Of a stretch of DNA of 64,000 bases, positions 9,622 to 36,580 are shown piece by piece; position 1 is the first letter of the stretch, and the number at the start of each line of letters is the position of its first letter. The notes under the pieces were generated by a model that was not told where the DNA came from, made no database searches, and saw only the letters and a program-made list of their open reading frames with translations. Source of the DNA: Actinomycetes bacterium (GTDB lineage: Bacteria; Actinomycetota; Actinomycetes; DATJPE01); NCBI GenBank assembly GCA_035506535.1, contig DATJPE010000001.1, positions 1-64,000 on the forward strand. The letters are read 5' to 3'. The position numbers and the translations under genes are program-made.

Positions 9622-11713
<2,092 letters not shown>

Positions 11714-11759
11714 GGGTGCACTGGGACCGCCCAGCGAGCTCAGCCCAGCGGACGCCAGG

Positions 11760-11801
11760 CCAGTGAGGTCAGGCCAGTGAGGTCAGGCCAGTGAGGTCAG
11801 G
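11760..11801. repeat. Three tandem 14-bp repeats
   Basis: The unit CCAGTGAGGTCAGG occurs three times without interruption at 11760-11773, 11774-11787 and 11788-11801, preceded by degenerate copies from about 11730. It lies in the 188-nt gap between groEL and whiD and codes for nothing I recognise. Confidence 0.85.
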
Positions 11802-11847
11802 CGCATGAGACTGGCCCAGGGCGGGTCTGGCCAGCGATGAGCGTCGG

Positions 11848-11901: not shown

Positions 11902-12201
11902 TCAGGACGCCGTCGCGAAGGTGGGCGTGCGCCGGCTGAGCAGCCGCTCGCGCTCGTCCTCGGTCATGCCGCCCCAGACGCCGTACGGCTCCCGCACGGC
12001 GAGGGCATGCGTCCGGCAGGCGTCGATCACCGGGCAGCGCGCGCACACGGCCTTGGCCGCGCGGTCGCGGGCCAGGCGGGCCGGGCCGCGCTCGCCCTCG
12101 GGGTGGAAGAAGACGCTGGGCTCCACCTCGCGGCAGGCGCCCCGCAGCTGCCAGTCCCACAGGTCGGCGTTCGGCCCGGGGAGCCGGGACAGGTCCGCCA
12201 T
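11902..12201 (-). CDS. whiD: WhiB-family transcription factor, WhiD/WhiB3 type
   Basis: This 99-residue iron-sulfur regulator binds the housekeeping sigma factor at target promoters. Four cluster cysteines are present at C23, C53, C56 and C62 in the C-Xn-CxxC-x5-C pattern. The turn motif GVWGG is at about 74-78, followed by the basic C-terminus. The N-terminal LPGPNADLWDWQLRGAC is close, as I remember them, to Streptomyces WhiD (spore maturation) and Mycobacterium WhiB3 (redox sensing). ATG 12201 is preceded by AGGAGG and fits the family start; the longer reading frame upstream lies in the promoter. Confidence 0.93.
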   Translation of the reverse strand: MADLSRLPGPNADLWDWQLRGACREVEPSVFFHPEGERGPARLARDRAAKAVCARCPVIDACRTHALAVREPYGVWGGMTEDERERLLSRRTPTFATAS

Positions 12202-12235
12202 GTCTGCCTCCTGGAGTCTTGGCGTCGTCGATGGC

Positions 12236-12264
12236 ACCGTATAACCGAGCCACGATCGAGTCAA
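12236..12264 (-). promoter_or_regulatory. whiD promoter
   Basis: On the reverse strand TTGACT (12264-12259) and TACGGT (12241-12236) are separated by 17 bp, close to the sigma-70-type consensus. The start would fall near 12229, leaving a leader of about 28 nt that includes the AGGAGG ribosome-binding site. The stretch 12241-12300 is unusually AT-rich for this window. Confidence 0.7.
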
Positions 12265-12331
12265 CTTCCAAAGATGAACAACTTATGACGCGATCGTTCC
12301 GGCTTCGGGGTGCGCTGCCGGCTCGGGGCGG

Positions 12332-12337
12332 GACAAT
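12332..12337 (+). promoter_or_regulatory. -10 element of the MerR/B12 regulator gene (leaderless)
   Basis: GACAAT ends 6 nt before the GTG at 12344, with no Shine-Dalgarno sequence, suggesting a leaderless mRNA. It is divergent from the whiD promoter, with the two starts about 115 bp apart, so shared regulation is possible. Confidence 0.4.
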
Positions 12338-12343
12338 GAGCGT

Positions 12344-13276
12344 GTGTCCGCCGACCCGCAGCCCGGCGCAGGGGCGGAGACCTCCGCCCCCGCGCTGACG
12401 GTGGCCGCGGTGGCCCGCCGGCTCGGGGTGGCGCCGGCCACCCTGCGGACCTGGGACCGCCGCTACGCGCTTGGTCCCTCCGCGCACACGGCGGGTGCCC
12501 ATCGCCGCTACGGCCCCCACGATGTGGCCCGCCTCGAGGTGATGCGCCGCCTGACCATGGAGGGGGTCGCGCCGGCGGACGCCGCGCGGGTCGCCCGCGA
12601 CTTCCACGGCCCCGCCCCCGAGGAGGCGCTCGCTCCGCCGCCCGACGCGCGGGTGGTCTCGATGCGCGCCGAGTCGCGAGCGGTCCGCGGGCTGGTCAAC
12701 GCGGCGTCGGCGCTCGACGCCGGGCAGACCGCGCGCGTGCTGAGCGAGGCGATCCATCGACGTGGAGTGGTCTGGACCTGGGACCACCTGGCGGTACCCG
12801 CCCTGGTGAGCGTCGGCGCCCGCTGGGAGGCGACGGGGCGCGGGATCGAGGTCGAGCACCTGCTCTCCTCGTGCGTGGCCACCGCGTTGACCGGCGCCGT
12901 GGAGTCTCCGCGGCGGCCGCTGAACGCCCGGCCGGTGCTGCTCGCCGCGGCCGACGAGGAGCAGCACGTGCTGCCCCTCCACGCGCTGGCCGCCGCGCTG
13001 GCTGAACGGCACATCGCCACCCACCTGCTCGGGATGCGGGTACCGACCGCTGCGCTGTTCGACGCGGTACGCCGTACCGGGCCTGCCGTCGTCTTCGTCT
13101 GGTCGCGCCTGGAGGCCACCGGCGACCCGGACGCCCTCGCGGCGCTGCCGGCGATGCGTCCCCCGGTCGCGGTGGTCGCGGGCGGTCCGGGCTGGACCTC
13201 GCCCCTGCCGCCGGGCGTCCAGCGGGCCCACGACCTCGTCGAGGCCGTCACCACGGTGATCCGCGCCGCCGCCTGA
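12344..13276 (+). CDS. MerR-family regulator with cobalamin-binding-type domain (CarH/LitR-like)
   Basis: The 310-residue protein has a MerR winged-helix DNA-binding domain at about 18-88, with VARRLGVAPATLRTWDRRY at 23-41. A helical domain at about 110-190 contains W161-x9-E171-H172, the Wx9EH signature of adenosylcobalamin-binding light sensors such as CarH. A Rossmann-like domain at about 195-305 has E206-Q-H208-x-x-P211, which resembles the CarH ExHxxG with the axial-ligand His but with Pro for Gly. The residue after W161 is E162 rather than the His that, as I recall, ligates cobalt in the light state of Thermus CarH. Cobalamin binding is inferred, not shown. No carotenoid genes are nearby; whiD and bldM flank it. 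Confidence 0.8.
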   Translation: MSADPQPGAGAETSAPALTVAAVARRLGVAPATLRTWDRRYALGPSAHTAGAHRRYGPHDVARLEVMRRLTMEGVAPADAARVARDFHGPAPEEALAPPPDARVVSMRAESRAVRGLVNAASALDAGQTARVLSEAIHRRGVVWTWDHLAVPALVSVGARWEATGRGIEVEHLLSSCVATALTGAVESPRRPLNARPVLLAAADEEQHVLPLHALAAALAERHIATHLLGMRVPTAALFDAVRRTGPAVVFVWSRLEATGDPDALAALPAMRPPVAVVAGGPGWTSPLPPGVQRAHDLVEAVTTVIRAAA

Positions 13277-13463
13277 GACGCCCCGGCGAGGGTCGCGACG
13301 TGGCACCGGCCGACGACCCGCGGTGAGCCTCGACCGACGCGCCGCCACGGTCCGTCGCGGCGCGCTCGGTACCCTGCCGCGAGGCGGTGCCGACGTCGCG
13401 GCGTGGGCGGGCCGCAGGACCGGGCGGTCAACCGCCGGCCGGTGCGAGCCGAAGGTGGGATCC

Positions 13464-14378
13464 GTGGAGTCGGTCGAGGGCGAACTGGCGGGGCTGCTCG
13501 CCTCCGGCGAGCGCGCCGCCTTCCACGGCCGCCCGGTCTCCGGGATCACGCCCCTTCAGCAGGCCGTGGAGGTGGCCCGAGCCGCCGGCCGCCCGGCCGA
13601 GGCCACGGCGGCCGCATGGCTGCTCGGCGTCGCCCTCGGCGCTGCGGGGCGCTACGGCAGCGCGCTCACGGTCCTCGAGCCCCTGACCACGACCCACTCG
13701 GGCTCGGCCGAGCGGCGGCTTTTCGCGGCGCTCGCCGCCGCCACGGCGGCCAGCGTGCAGCGCCAGCTGGGCAGCCACGCGGTGGCCGCCGAGCTGGACG
13801 AGCTGGCGGAACGGCTGGCCGGCGACTCACCCGAGGCCTGCTTCGACGCAGCCCTCGGTCTGGCCGCGGACGCGGTGGGGCTCGCTGATGCCGCCACCGC
13901 CCGCCGTCACGTCGAGCGCGCGGCGTCGCTGACCGAGGGCCGGGCGGACTGGTGGCGCCAGCGGGTCCGCCTGCTGTGGGTGCGCGCCGAGGTGGCGCTG
14001 CTGGAGACCGATCCCGGCTCCGCCGCCCAGCTCGCCGAGCGGGCCGTCAGCCTGGCCGAGTCCTCCCGGGCACCCAGGCATGTCGCCAAGAGTCTGCTGT
14101 TCCTGGGGATCGCCCAGGTGCACGCCGGCGAGAACGCCGAGGCCATCACGACGCTTCGACGCGCCGCGACGCTGGCGGAGTCGCTGGGCACGCTGCCGCT
14201 GCTCTGGCCCTCCCGGGCTCTCCTCGGGGCTCTGCTCGAGGCGAGCGCCCCCAAGGAGGCCGCTCGCTCGCTGGCGTCCGCGCGCAACGCGGTGCTGCAG
14301 ATCGCCGACGACCTGCCCGAGAGCCTGCGCGGGCCGTGGCTGGCTCGCCCGGACGTCGCGGCGCTGCTCGGCGGCTGA
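13464..14378 (+). CDS. Helical-repeat (TPR-like) protein of unknown function
   Basis: This 304-residue, Ala/Leu-rich protein appears built almost wholly of paired helices, as in tetratricopeptide repeats. Repeat-like units such as HVAKSLLFLGIAQVHAGENAEAITTLRRAATLA lie in the C-terminal third. There is no signal peptide, membrane segment or catalytic motif I recognise. GTG 13464 is preferred because GAAGGTGGGA stands just upstream; the frame stays open to 13323. A TACCCT at 13370-13375 could be its -10 element. Its place between the MerR-type regulator and bldM hints at a regulatory or scaffolding role, but that is only context. Confidence 0.65.
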   Translation: MESVEGELAGLLASGERAAFHGRPVSGITPLQQAVEVARAAGRPAEATAAAWLLGVALGAAGRYGSALTVLEPLTTTHSGSAERRLFAALAAATAASVQRQLGSHAVAAELDELAERLAGDSPEACFDAALGLAADAVGLADAATARRHVERAASLTEGRADWWRQRVRLLWVRAEVALLETDPGSAAQLAERAVSLAESSRAPRHVAKSLLFLGIAQVHAGENAEAITTLRRAATLAESLGTLPLLWPSRALLGALLEASAPKEAARSLASARNAVLQIADDLPESLRGPWLARPDVAALLGG

Positions 14379-14434: not shown

Positions 14435-15049
14435 GTGACCACCGTGTGCGTCTGCGACGACTCCCCGCTGGCCCGGGAGTCGTTGCGCCGTGCGGTGGCG
14501 GCGCTGCCCGGGGTGACCCGGGTCACTGCGGCCGCCAGCGGCGAGGAGGTCCTCAACCGCTATCCCGCCGAGCGGCCCGACCTGGTCCTGCTCGACGTGC
14601 GGATGCCCGGCCTCGGCGGAGTGGAGGCGCTGCGACGGCTGGTGGCCGTGCACCCGGAGGCCTCGGTGCTCATGCTCACCCTCGCCGAGGACACCGACGG
14701 GGTCGCTCGCGCGGTCGCTGCCGGTGCCCGGGGCTACCTGCGCAAGGACGCCACCCGCGAGGAGCTGATCGCGACGGTCGGGCAGGCGCTCAGTCGAAGC
14801 CGGGGACGCGAGTCCGCGGCGGCCCGCCCCCGGCCGACGGTGGAGGGGATGCCGCCAGTGCTCACCGAGCGCGAGCTCCAGGTGCTCTCGGGGATGTCCC
14901 GGGGTCGCTCCAACGCCGAGATCGGGCGTGAGCTGTACCTGTCCGAGGACACCGTGAAGACCCACGCGCGGCGCCTGTTCCGCAAGCTGGGGGCCGCGGA
15001 CCGCGCCCACGCGGTGGCGCTCGGGTACCGCTGGGCCCTGCTGCGCTAG
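14435..15049 (+). CDS. bldM: LuxR/NarL-type response regulator, BldM-like
   Basis: The 204-residue protein has an N-terminal receiver domain with D8/D9, phospho-acceptor D54 and K104. A LuxR-type helix-turn-helix at about 140-204 reads LTERELQVLSGMSRGRSNAEIGREL...SEDTVKTHARRLFRKLGAADR. The sequence is strikingly close to what I remember of Streptomyces BldM, which controls aerial development as a homodimer or as a heterodimer with WhiI. No cognate histidine kinase is adjacent. GTG 14435 has neither a clear ribosome-binding site nor a correctly spaced -10 element. The neighbours whiD upstream and guaB downstream match the Streptomyces arrangement. Confidence 0.88.
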   Translation: MTTVCVCDDSPLARESLRRAVAALPGVTRVTAAASGEEVLNRYPAERPDLVLLDVRMPGLGGVEALRRLVAVHPEASVLMLTLAEDTDGVARAVAAGARGYLRKDATREELIATVGQALSRSRGRESAAARPRPTVEGMPPVLTERELQVLSGMSRGRSNAEIGRELYLSEDTVKTHARRLFRKLGAADRAHAVALGYRWALLR

Positions 15050-16600
<1,551 letters not shown>

Positions 16601-36178: not shown

Positions 36179-36580
36179 GTGGAGCCGATCCGCGTAGTGA
36201 TCGCGAAGCCGGGCCTCGACGGCCACGACCGGGGTGCCAAGGTGGTGGCCCGCGCCCTGCGCGACTCCGGCGTCGAGGTGGTCTACACCGGGCTGCACCA
36301 GACACCCGAGCAGATCGTCGCGACCGCGATCGAGGAGGACGCCGACGCGGTCGGGCTGAGCATCCTCTCGGGCGCGCACCTCACGTTGTTCGCCCGCGTC
36401 CTCGAGCTGCTGCGCGAGCACGATGCGACGGACATCGTCGTCTTCGGCGGCGGCATCATCCCGGAGGAGGACATCCCCGAGCTCCAGGCCATGGGAGTCG
36501 CGGCCGTGTTCACCCCGGGCACGTCGACGCAGACGATCGTCGACTGGGTCCGCGACCACGTGGCCGCGCCTACCGGCTGA
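36179..36580 (+). CDS. Cobalamin-binding small subunit of an acyl-CoA mutase
   Basis: The 133-residue stand-alone B12-binding domain has D14-G-H16-D-R-G19, the DxHxxG motif whose His is the lower axial cobalt ligand, then SILSGAHL and [14 protein letters not shown]. This is the C-terminal domain of methylmalonyl-CoA mutase as a separate subunit, as in the small subunits of isobutyryl-CoA and some methylmalonyl-CoA mutases. The likely partner is the catalytic subunit at 55382-56962, which lacks such a domain. It lies 124 nt upstream of sucC, whose enzyme uses the mutase product. The gap holds no gene, only short direct repeats (TACCTGCAC twice). Confidence 0.9.

Follow-up and report, generated by a model that had tools for sequence, protein, structure and literature searches.

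The gene under study is part of a row of open reading frames in the window, i. e. the whole stretch of 64,000 nucleotides that was analysed. The following genes and domains are of relevance here:

9622-9912: groES, the upstream neighbour of groEL
10070..11713, forward strand: groEL, a conserved upstream neighbour (ORF list, synteny)
11902..12201, reverse strand: whiD-like gene of the WhiB family (wbl), the predicted main target (Pfam Whib, 2.6e-26; synteny)
12344..13276, forward strand: litR/carH-like gene (310 amino acids, GTG start), an open reading frame judged to be real
13323..14378, forward strand: open frame for a TPR protein between litR and bldM, its true start probably further downstream
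14435..15049, forward strand: gene for a bldM-like orphan response regulator (Pfam, homologues)
15101..16600, forward strand: guaB (IMP dehydrogenase), a conserved downstream neighbour (ORF list, synteny)
36188-36532: cobalamin mutase domain

The names whiD and bldM are supported by Streptomyces-like genomes, in which wbl and bldM homologues that are about 70% identical to those of the window lie side by side. An earlier, sequence-only reading of this DNA had placed the regulator between these two genes, which holds for both names but left the intervening TPR frame unmentioned; the latter is possibly co-transcribed with litR. Its remark that the flanks are free of carotenoid genes was accurate, as a link to crt genes is missing and the neighbours are whiD, tpr, bldM, and guaB, and the cobalamin-dependent mutase it had reported in the window is accounted for by the domain listed above. 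Between the end of groEL and whiD, a short tandem repeat with gccagtgaggtca... units is located at positions 11740-11806.

Within the regulator, three domains can be delineated:

12392..12595, forward strand: MerR-type winged-helix DNA-binding domain, residues ~17-84 (Pfam MerR_1, 7.7e-16)
12686..12889, forward strand: four-helix bundle, residues ~115-182 (Pfam B12-binding_2, 2.7e-6, above the cut-off; helices present in the model)
12935..13195, forward strand: Rossmann cobalamin domain, residues ~198-284 (Pfam B12-binding, 2.8e-6; with 27.6 bits just below the cut-off of 32.1)

The 310-residue protein hence resembles CarH/LitR over its whole length, with an N-terminal MerR head followed by the C-terminal four-helix bundle and Rossmann cobalamin domain that make up the LitR/CarH architecture. 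Its best full-length sequence match in the PDB is Thermus CarH (5c8d, 2.8e-12, residues 9-276), followed by CtMerR (8jbs, 3.2e-9). An AF2 model built from 25 homologues (mean pLDDT 89.9) displays helices and strands in the order expected for a protein of the CarH/LitR type. When this model was compared to the PDB with Foldseek, all 50 top matches were Thermus CarH/LitR or CtMerR (best E value 6.2e-15), with TM scores of up to 0.83 (by target length) for the cobalamin domain. Pfam domains, PDB matches, and Foldseek matches thus agree with the original description as a CarH-like cobalamin/light-type MerR regulator. The gene was not filed as a CarH equivalog because it scores 52.6 bits with the NCBIfam model NF052513, compared to a curated cut-off of 400. 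The protein is classed as an actinobacterial member of the LitR/CarH family with a different predicted target, and not as CarH.

Three elements of the predicted cobalamin pocket deserve closer inspection:

12824..12859, forward strand: W161-x9-E171-H172, forming the predicted adenosyl pocket; E162 occupies the position of H132 of Thermus thermophilus CarH (TtCarH) (5c8d alignment, conservation)
12965..12976, forward strand: H208-x-x-P211, comprising the predicted lower axial ligand of cobalt (TtCarH H177) and the Gly-to-Pro position
13031..13045, forward strand: G230-x3-P234, the GxxxP element of a published light-responsive signature

The residues emphasized in the sequence-only reading, namely W161 with x9 and E171-H172, E206-Q-H208-x-x-P211, and E162 directly after W161, are all present where they had been placed. 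An alignment with CarH had been posed beforehand as a test of their relevance. Using the 5c8d alignment, W161, E171, H172, and H208 fall on the TtCarH pocket residues W131, E141, H142, and H177 rather than outside, and E162 falls on H132. The Wx9EH motif and the lower-ligand His typical of LitR/CarH are thus complete, and these four residues are predicted to be part of an AdoCbl pocket of the Thermus CarH type. Counted over 139 family sequences, H172 is found in 139, H208 in 138, E171 in 133, and W161 in 122, a conservation far above chance, while the GxxxP element is retained to a similar extent (G230 in 137, P234 in 138). That H208, H172, and E171 hardly vary even between remote lineages, streamlined genomes among them, suggests that the pocket for cobalt and the adenosyl group is under selection. 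The light-responsive signature for cobalamin domains obtained with SignatureFinder consists of GxxW, EH, GxxH, and GxxxP (PMC11796333). GxxW, EH, and GxxxP are intact in the 310-residue protein; GxxH keeps H208, but carries Glu205 instead of Gly.

The deviations from TtCarH had been taken as a hint that the light cycle may have been lost, which was not supported by comparison with other family members. The column of E162 mostly holds Glu or Ala, with His outside the eight commonest residues, and at position 211, where the terminal Gly of ExHxxG is replaced by Pro in the window protein, 100 of the 139 sequences have Pro and 35 have Ala. The H132 position is occupied by Arg, Gln, and Tyr in the photoresponsive CtMerR, SasPcob, and AbDPcob, respectively (PMC11796333). 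Moreover, E162, P211, and W253 are common to the window protein and three Streptomyces homologues, one of which, from S. atratus, is flanked by genes for a sigma factor, lycopene cyclase, phytoene synthase, and crtI. The terminal Gly is not strictly defining, since Pro occurs in the Streptomyces homologues and Ala in CtMerR, and E162 and P211 are no evidence of loss because Streptomyces homologues, CtMerR, and other photoresponsive proteins deviate there too. The light output could still differ, as the TtCarH H132A variant is impaired in tetramer dissociation and remains mostly tetrameric after light (PMC10442372). At residue 253 (window 13100-13102), Trp replaces the Ser of the cobalamin SxL motif in 134 of the 139 sequences, and may alter the shape of the pocket that takes up the cobalamin tail.

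The stretch 12202-12343 between whiD and litR had been highlighted as DNA of interest, a choice borne out by a conserved predicted operator in this wbl-litR gap:

12236..12264, reverse strand: predicted whiD promoter (-35 TTGACT, 12264-12259; 17-bp spacer; -10 TACGGT, 12241-12236)
12247..12264, forward strand: predicted operator site 1, which overlies the whiD promoter and is degenerate in the window genome (about 5 bits)
12274..12291, reverse strand: predicted operator site 2, an inverted copy 27 bp from site 1 with the near-consensus sequence GCGTCATAAGTTGTTCAT (24 bits)

Motif discovery in 86 different wbl-litR gaps returned one strong motif, CTTGAACAACTTATGACGCGGTTGTA (read towards wbl), which is present in the wbl-facing orientation at 12 bits or more in 80 of them and overlies the -35 box and spacer of the wbl promoter (family consensus TTGAAC-17-TAagGT). 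A second copy is frequent across the gaps, either inverted at +27 (16 cases) or +38 (3 cases), or direct at +25 to +27 (15 cases). The strongest internal period of the motif is 11 bp, both in the wbl-linked set and in an independent ECF-sigma set, with period statistics that are inflated by shared descent. Known CarH operators are tandem 11-bp direct repeats that overlap the promoter (PMC8156234). At the sequence level, this arrangement recurs in the 11-bp period over the wbl -35 box, with a partial match to the letters of TtCarH: the strict three-repeat TtCarH operator (nAnnTnnACAn) was rejected, as the period holds but the letters differ.

The motif closely follows litR. Searching 36 genomes for the exact pattern gave 23 matches, 22 of which are located in a wbl-litR gap, compared to 3 for the reversed control. 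The sole exact match in the window genome is the one in the whiD-litR gap, and a near-consensus operator elsewhere in this genome was not found. A wider regulon therein was discarded, since matches with up to two mismatches (22, versus 33 for the reversed control) are background. Among 12 wbl upstream regions, the one with an adjacent litR scores 28.7 bits, while the 11 without it are at background, including one that keeps the order groEL-wbl-tpr-bldM. Conversely, the motif is found away from wbl between litR and an ECF-sigma gene in Actinomadura (17.7-21 bits) and, as a weaker copy, in Nonomuraea. A CTTGAACAACTTATGACGCGGTTGTA-type sequence was not found at Streptomyces litR loci. The litR-litS gaps of two Streptomyces loci (L240, 8885-8918; L239, 8888-8915) contain apparent 11-bp direct repeats, GTGCGTCGTTT/GTGCGTCGTAT, which were recognized by eye only and represent a candidate LitR operator. 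The only exact match outside a wbl-litR gap (locus L206, 1501-1518; G031:C64:6497) lies about 80 bp before a dihydrouridine-synthase-like frame and points the other way; it may be due to chance or mark a second target.

Family members (E <= 1e-15) are encoded in 212 of 390 good-quality genomes of the class. A divergent wbl adjoins litR in 75 of 80 named loci, mostly in the order groES-groEL-wbl-litR-...-guaB. As bldM is present in only about 24 of the 75 wbl-linked loci and missing from the small freshwater genomes, the constant partner of litR is wbl and not bldM. The groESL-wbl(whiD)-litR-guaB setting is thus old and recurs across Actinomycetes, with bldM as an optional component. In other lineages, litR is accompanied by genes for a photolyase, an ECF sigma factor, a polyprenyl synthetase, or a phytoene-desaturase-like oxidoreductase. 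In a phylogenetic tree, members without wbl linkage are scattered among the linked ones, and linkage requires about 6 changes versus 23 in shuffles. An ancestral wbl linkage is only a suggestion, because the tree is rooted with two outgroups on very long branches and the majority of its deep forks are poorly supported. Tentatively, and with somewhat less than even confidence, we propose that many Actinomycetes, streamlined freshwater lineages among them, use a B12 photoreceptor as a switch dedicated to a single locus, where it acts on whiD and on its own operon, and that this wiring is the older one in actinobacteria, from which control of carotenoid or photolyase genes by LitR arose through later re-wiring.

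Comparison with characterized systems places the window protein in the same family as Streptomyces homologues from lit-crt, photolyase, and ECF-sigma loci. The Streptomyces LitR homologues that were compared are about 42% identical to it, have W161, E162, E171, H172, H208, P211, and W253 all in common, and likewise feature apparent 11-bp repeats in the gap to a divergent partner gene. In contrast, their operator sequence differs, and Streptomyces litR is associated with an ECF-sigma gene (litS) and often with crt or photolyase genes, whereas the window gene is found with whiD, tpr, bldM, and guaB. LitR from S. coelicolor has been reported to sense light by means of coenzyme B12 and to regulate litS (PMC12705666). 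TtCarH (5C8D/5C8E/5C8F, 3WHP; sequence taken from the PDB alignment) shares the domain order, fold, Wx9EH, lower His, GxxxP, and the 11-bp direct repeats that are predicted for the operator here, but is ~24-25% identical in the structural alignment, has different targets and an only partly similar operator sequence, and differs by H132 to Glu, the last Gly of ExHxxG to Pro, and the Ser of SxL to Trp. CtMerR from Chloracidobacterium thermophilum (8JBS/8JBT) also combines a MerR domain with an AdoCbl photoresponsive domain and equally lacks an H132 equivalent (Arg), with Ala at the position of Pro211; its identity is ~23% (structural alignment), and lineage and context differ. Finally, CarA from Myxococcus xanthus possesses MerR and cobalamin domains and an operator that overlaps a -35 box, yet is a B12-independent repressor that works with the antirepressor CarS.

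Taken together, we consider it probable that the gene encodes a LitR/CarH family member that controls whiD, and probably also its own operon, via AdoCbl and probably light. From the computed fold, pocket, and operator we infer AdoCbl binding, a light response, an oligomer switch, contact to DNA, and a direction of regulation along the following lines. In the dark, AdoCbl would be held by W161, E171, and H172 of the four-helix bundle on one side and by the Rossmann domain on the other, where H208 would provide the lower cobalt ligand, and the protein would assemble. The assembled form may then bind the tandem 11-bp direct repeats over the -35 box and spacer of the divergent whiD promoter, as well as the inverted second site, which lies towards litR. 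Exposure to light or a lack of AdoCbl would break or weaken the complex and thus alter whiD transcription, most simply by derepression; transcription of the litR-tpr-bldM-guaB unit would probably be altered likewise. Activation of whiD by light is just as conceivable as derepression, because Streptomyces LitR has been described as a repressor in the dark and an activator in the light (PMC12705666). Several points count against this proposal. The open-licence papers searched contain no experiment on this protein or on a whiD-linked homologue. The cobalt-ligating His of TtCarH in its light state is replaced by E162, and dissociation is poor in the TtCarH H132A variant. The site over the whiD promoter is degenerate in the window, though the inverted site is near consensus, and the NF052513 score is far below its cut-off. 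By analogy, M. xanthus CarA, which binds B12 without needing it, could likewise speak against the proposal.

Three other explanations were weighed. The protein might sense the level of AdoCbl instead of light, with AdoCbl driving assembly and DNA binding, a Glu at the H132 position permitting photolysis without release of DNA, and B12 status being reported to whiD. This would fit the absence of His from the eight commonest residues of the E162 column, the mostly tetrameric state of illuminated TtCarH H132A (PMC10442372), and the housekeeping and developmental neighbours in the window genome instead of pigment or photolyase genes. We nevertheless regard it as unlikely, considering that other photoresponsive proteins also lack an H132-type His, that Streptomyces homologues, including one from a lit-crt cluster, have the same Glu, and that AdoCbl is intrinsically light-labile. 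It is rather improbable that the regulator is CarA-like, i. e. that its cobalamin domain was kept for dimerization or a protein partner while neither B12 nor light affects its binding to DNA. M. xanthus CarA provides a precedent, as it has a B12 motif yet does not require B12 (PMC8156234), and the Rossmann half deviates from TtCarH at residues 205 (Glu for Gly), 211 (Pro for Gly), and 253 (Trp for Ser). However, P211 and W253 also occur in Streptomyces homologues of the lit-crt type, and the conservation of H208, H172, and E171 described above speaks against it.

Conceivably, the element in the gap is not an operator of the litR product at all, but a promoter element or the site of another regulator of wbl. 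In favour of this, a sigma-70-like promoter of wbl, good in both its -35 and its -10 box, lies beneath the motif, and the exact sequence is missing at Streptomyces litR loci. We judge this the most improbable of the alternatives, since the motif is absent at the 11 wbl genes without adjacent litR, including the groEL-wbl-tpr-bldM case, but present at the litR-adjacent ECF-sigma promoter in Actinomadura and Nonomuraea, and the Streptomyces litR-litS gap has apparent 11-bp repeats of its own (by eye).

Known LitR/CarH proteins have been studied mainly as carotenoid switches. Unlike its relatives at pigment genes, the LitR/CarH-type protein described here appears to be tied to whiD by its location and a near-unique predicted operator. 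In Streptomyces, whiD is a sporulation regulator, and Mycobacterium needs its counterpart WhiB3 for virulence (PMC4255298). Papers that link LitR or CarH with WhiB-family genes were not found among the open-licence papers searched, which does not prove novelty. The highly conserved predicted DNA-binding site over the whiD promoter makes control of whiD by light or B12 directly testable. If the preferred reading holds true, it would show concretely how light or coenzyme B12 could act on the development of actinobacteria, link both signals to development and redox/NO control via the iron-sulfur regulator WhiD, and yield a candidate light-sensing regulator in abundant freshwater actinobacteria.

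With respect to cofactor supply, the genome of the window encodes an AdoCbl-making enzyme and an AdoCbl-type NrdJ. Of 38 genomes, 36 encode a PduO-type adenosyltransferase, as do all 18 genomes of a further set; being near-universal in the class, AdoCbl supply has no discriminating value. Its use as a pointer to the regulator in freshwater genomes was dropped, because NrdJ is another AdoCbl user there. The NrdJ match in the window genome (G000:C83:105192-108347) breaks off at profile position ~566 and resumes about 1.3 kb further on within one uninterrupted frame of 1433 amino acids, and the insert looks like an intein. Lastly, four metagenome records (L050, L106, L089, and L094) contain the groEL-wbl-litR(-guaB) locus typical of freshwater actinobacteria; their titles, which name Bifidobacterium breve, Streptomyces griseus, or Fonsibacter, look mislabelled.
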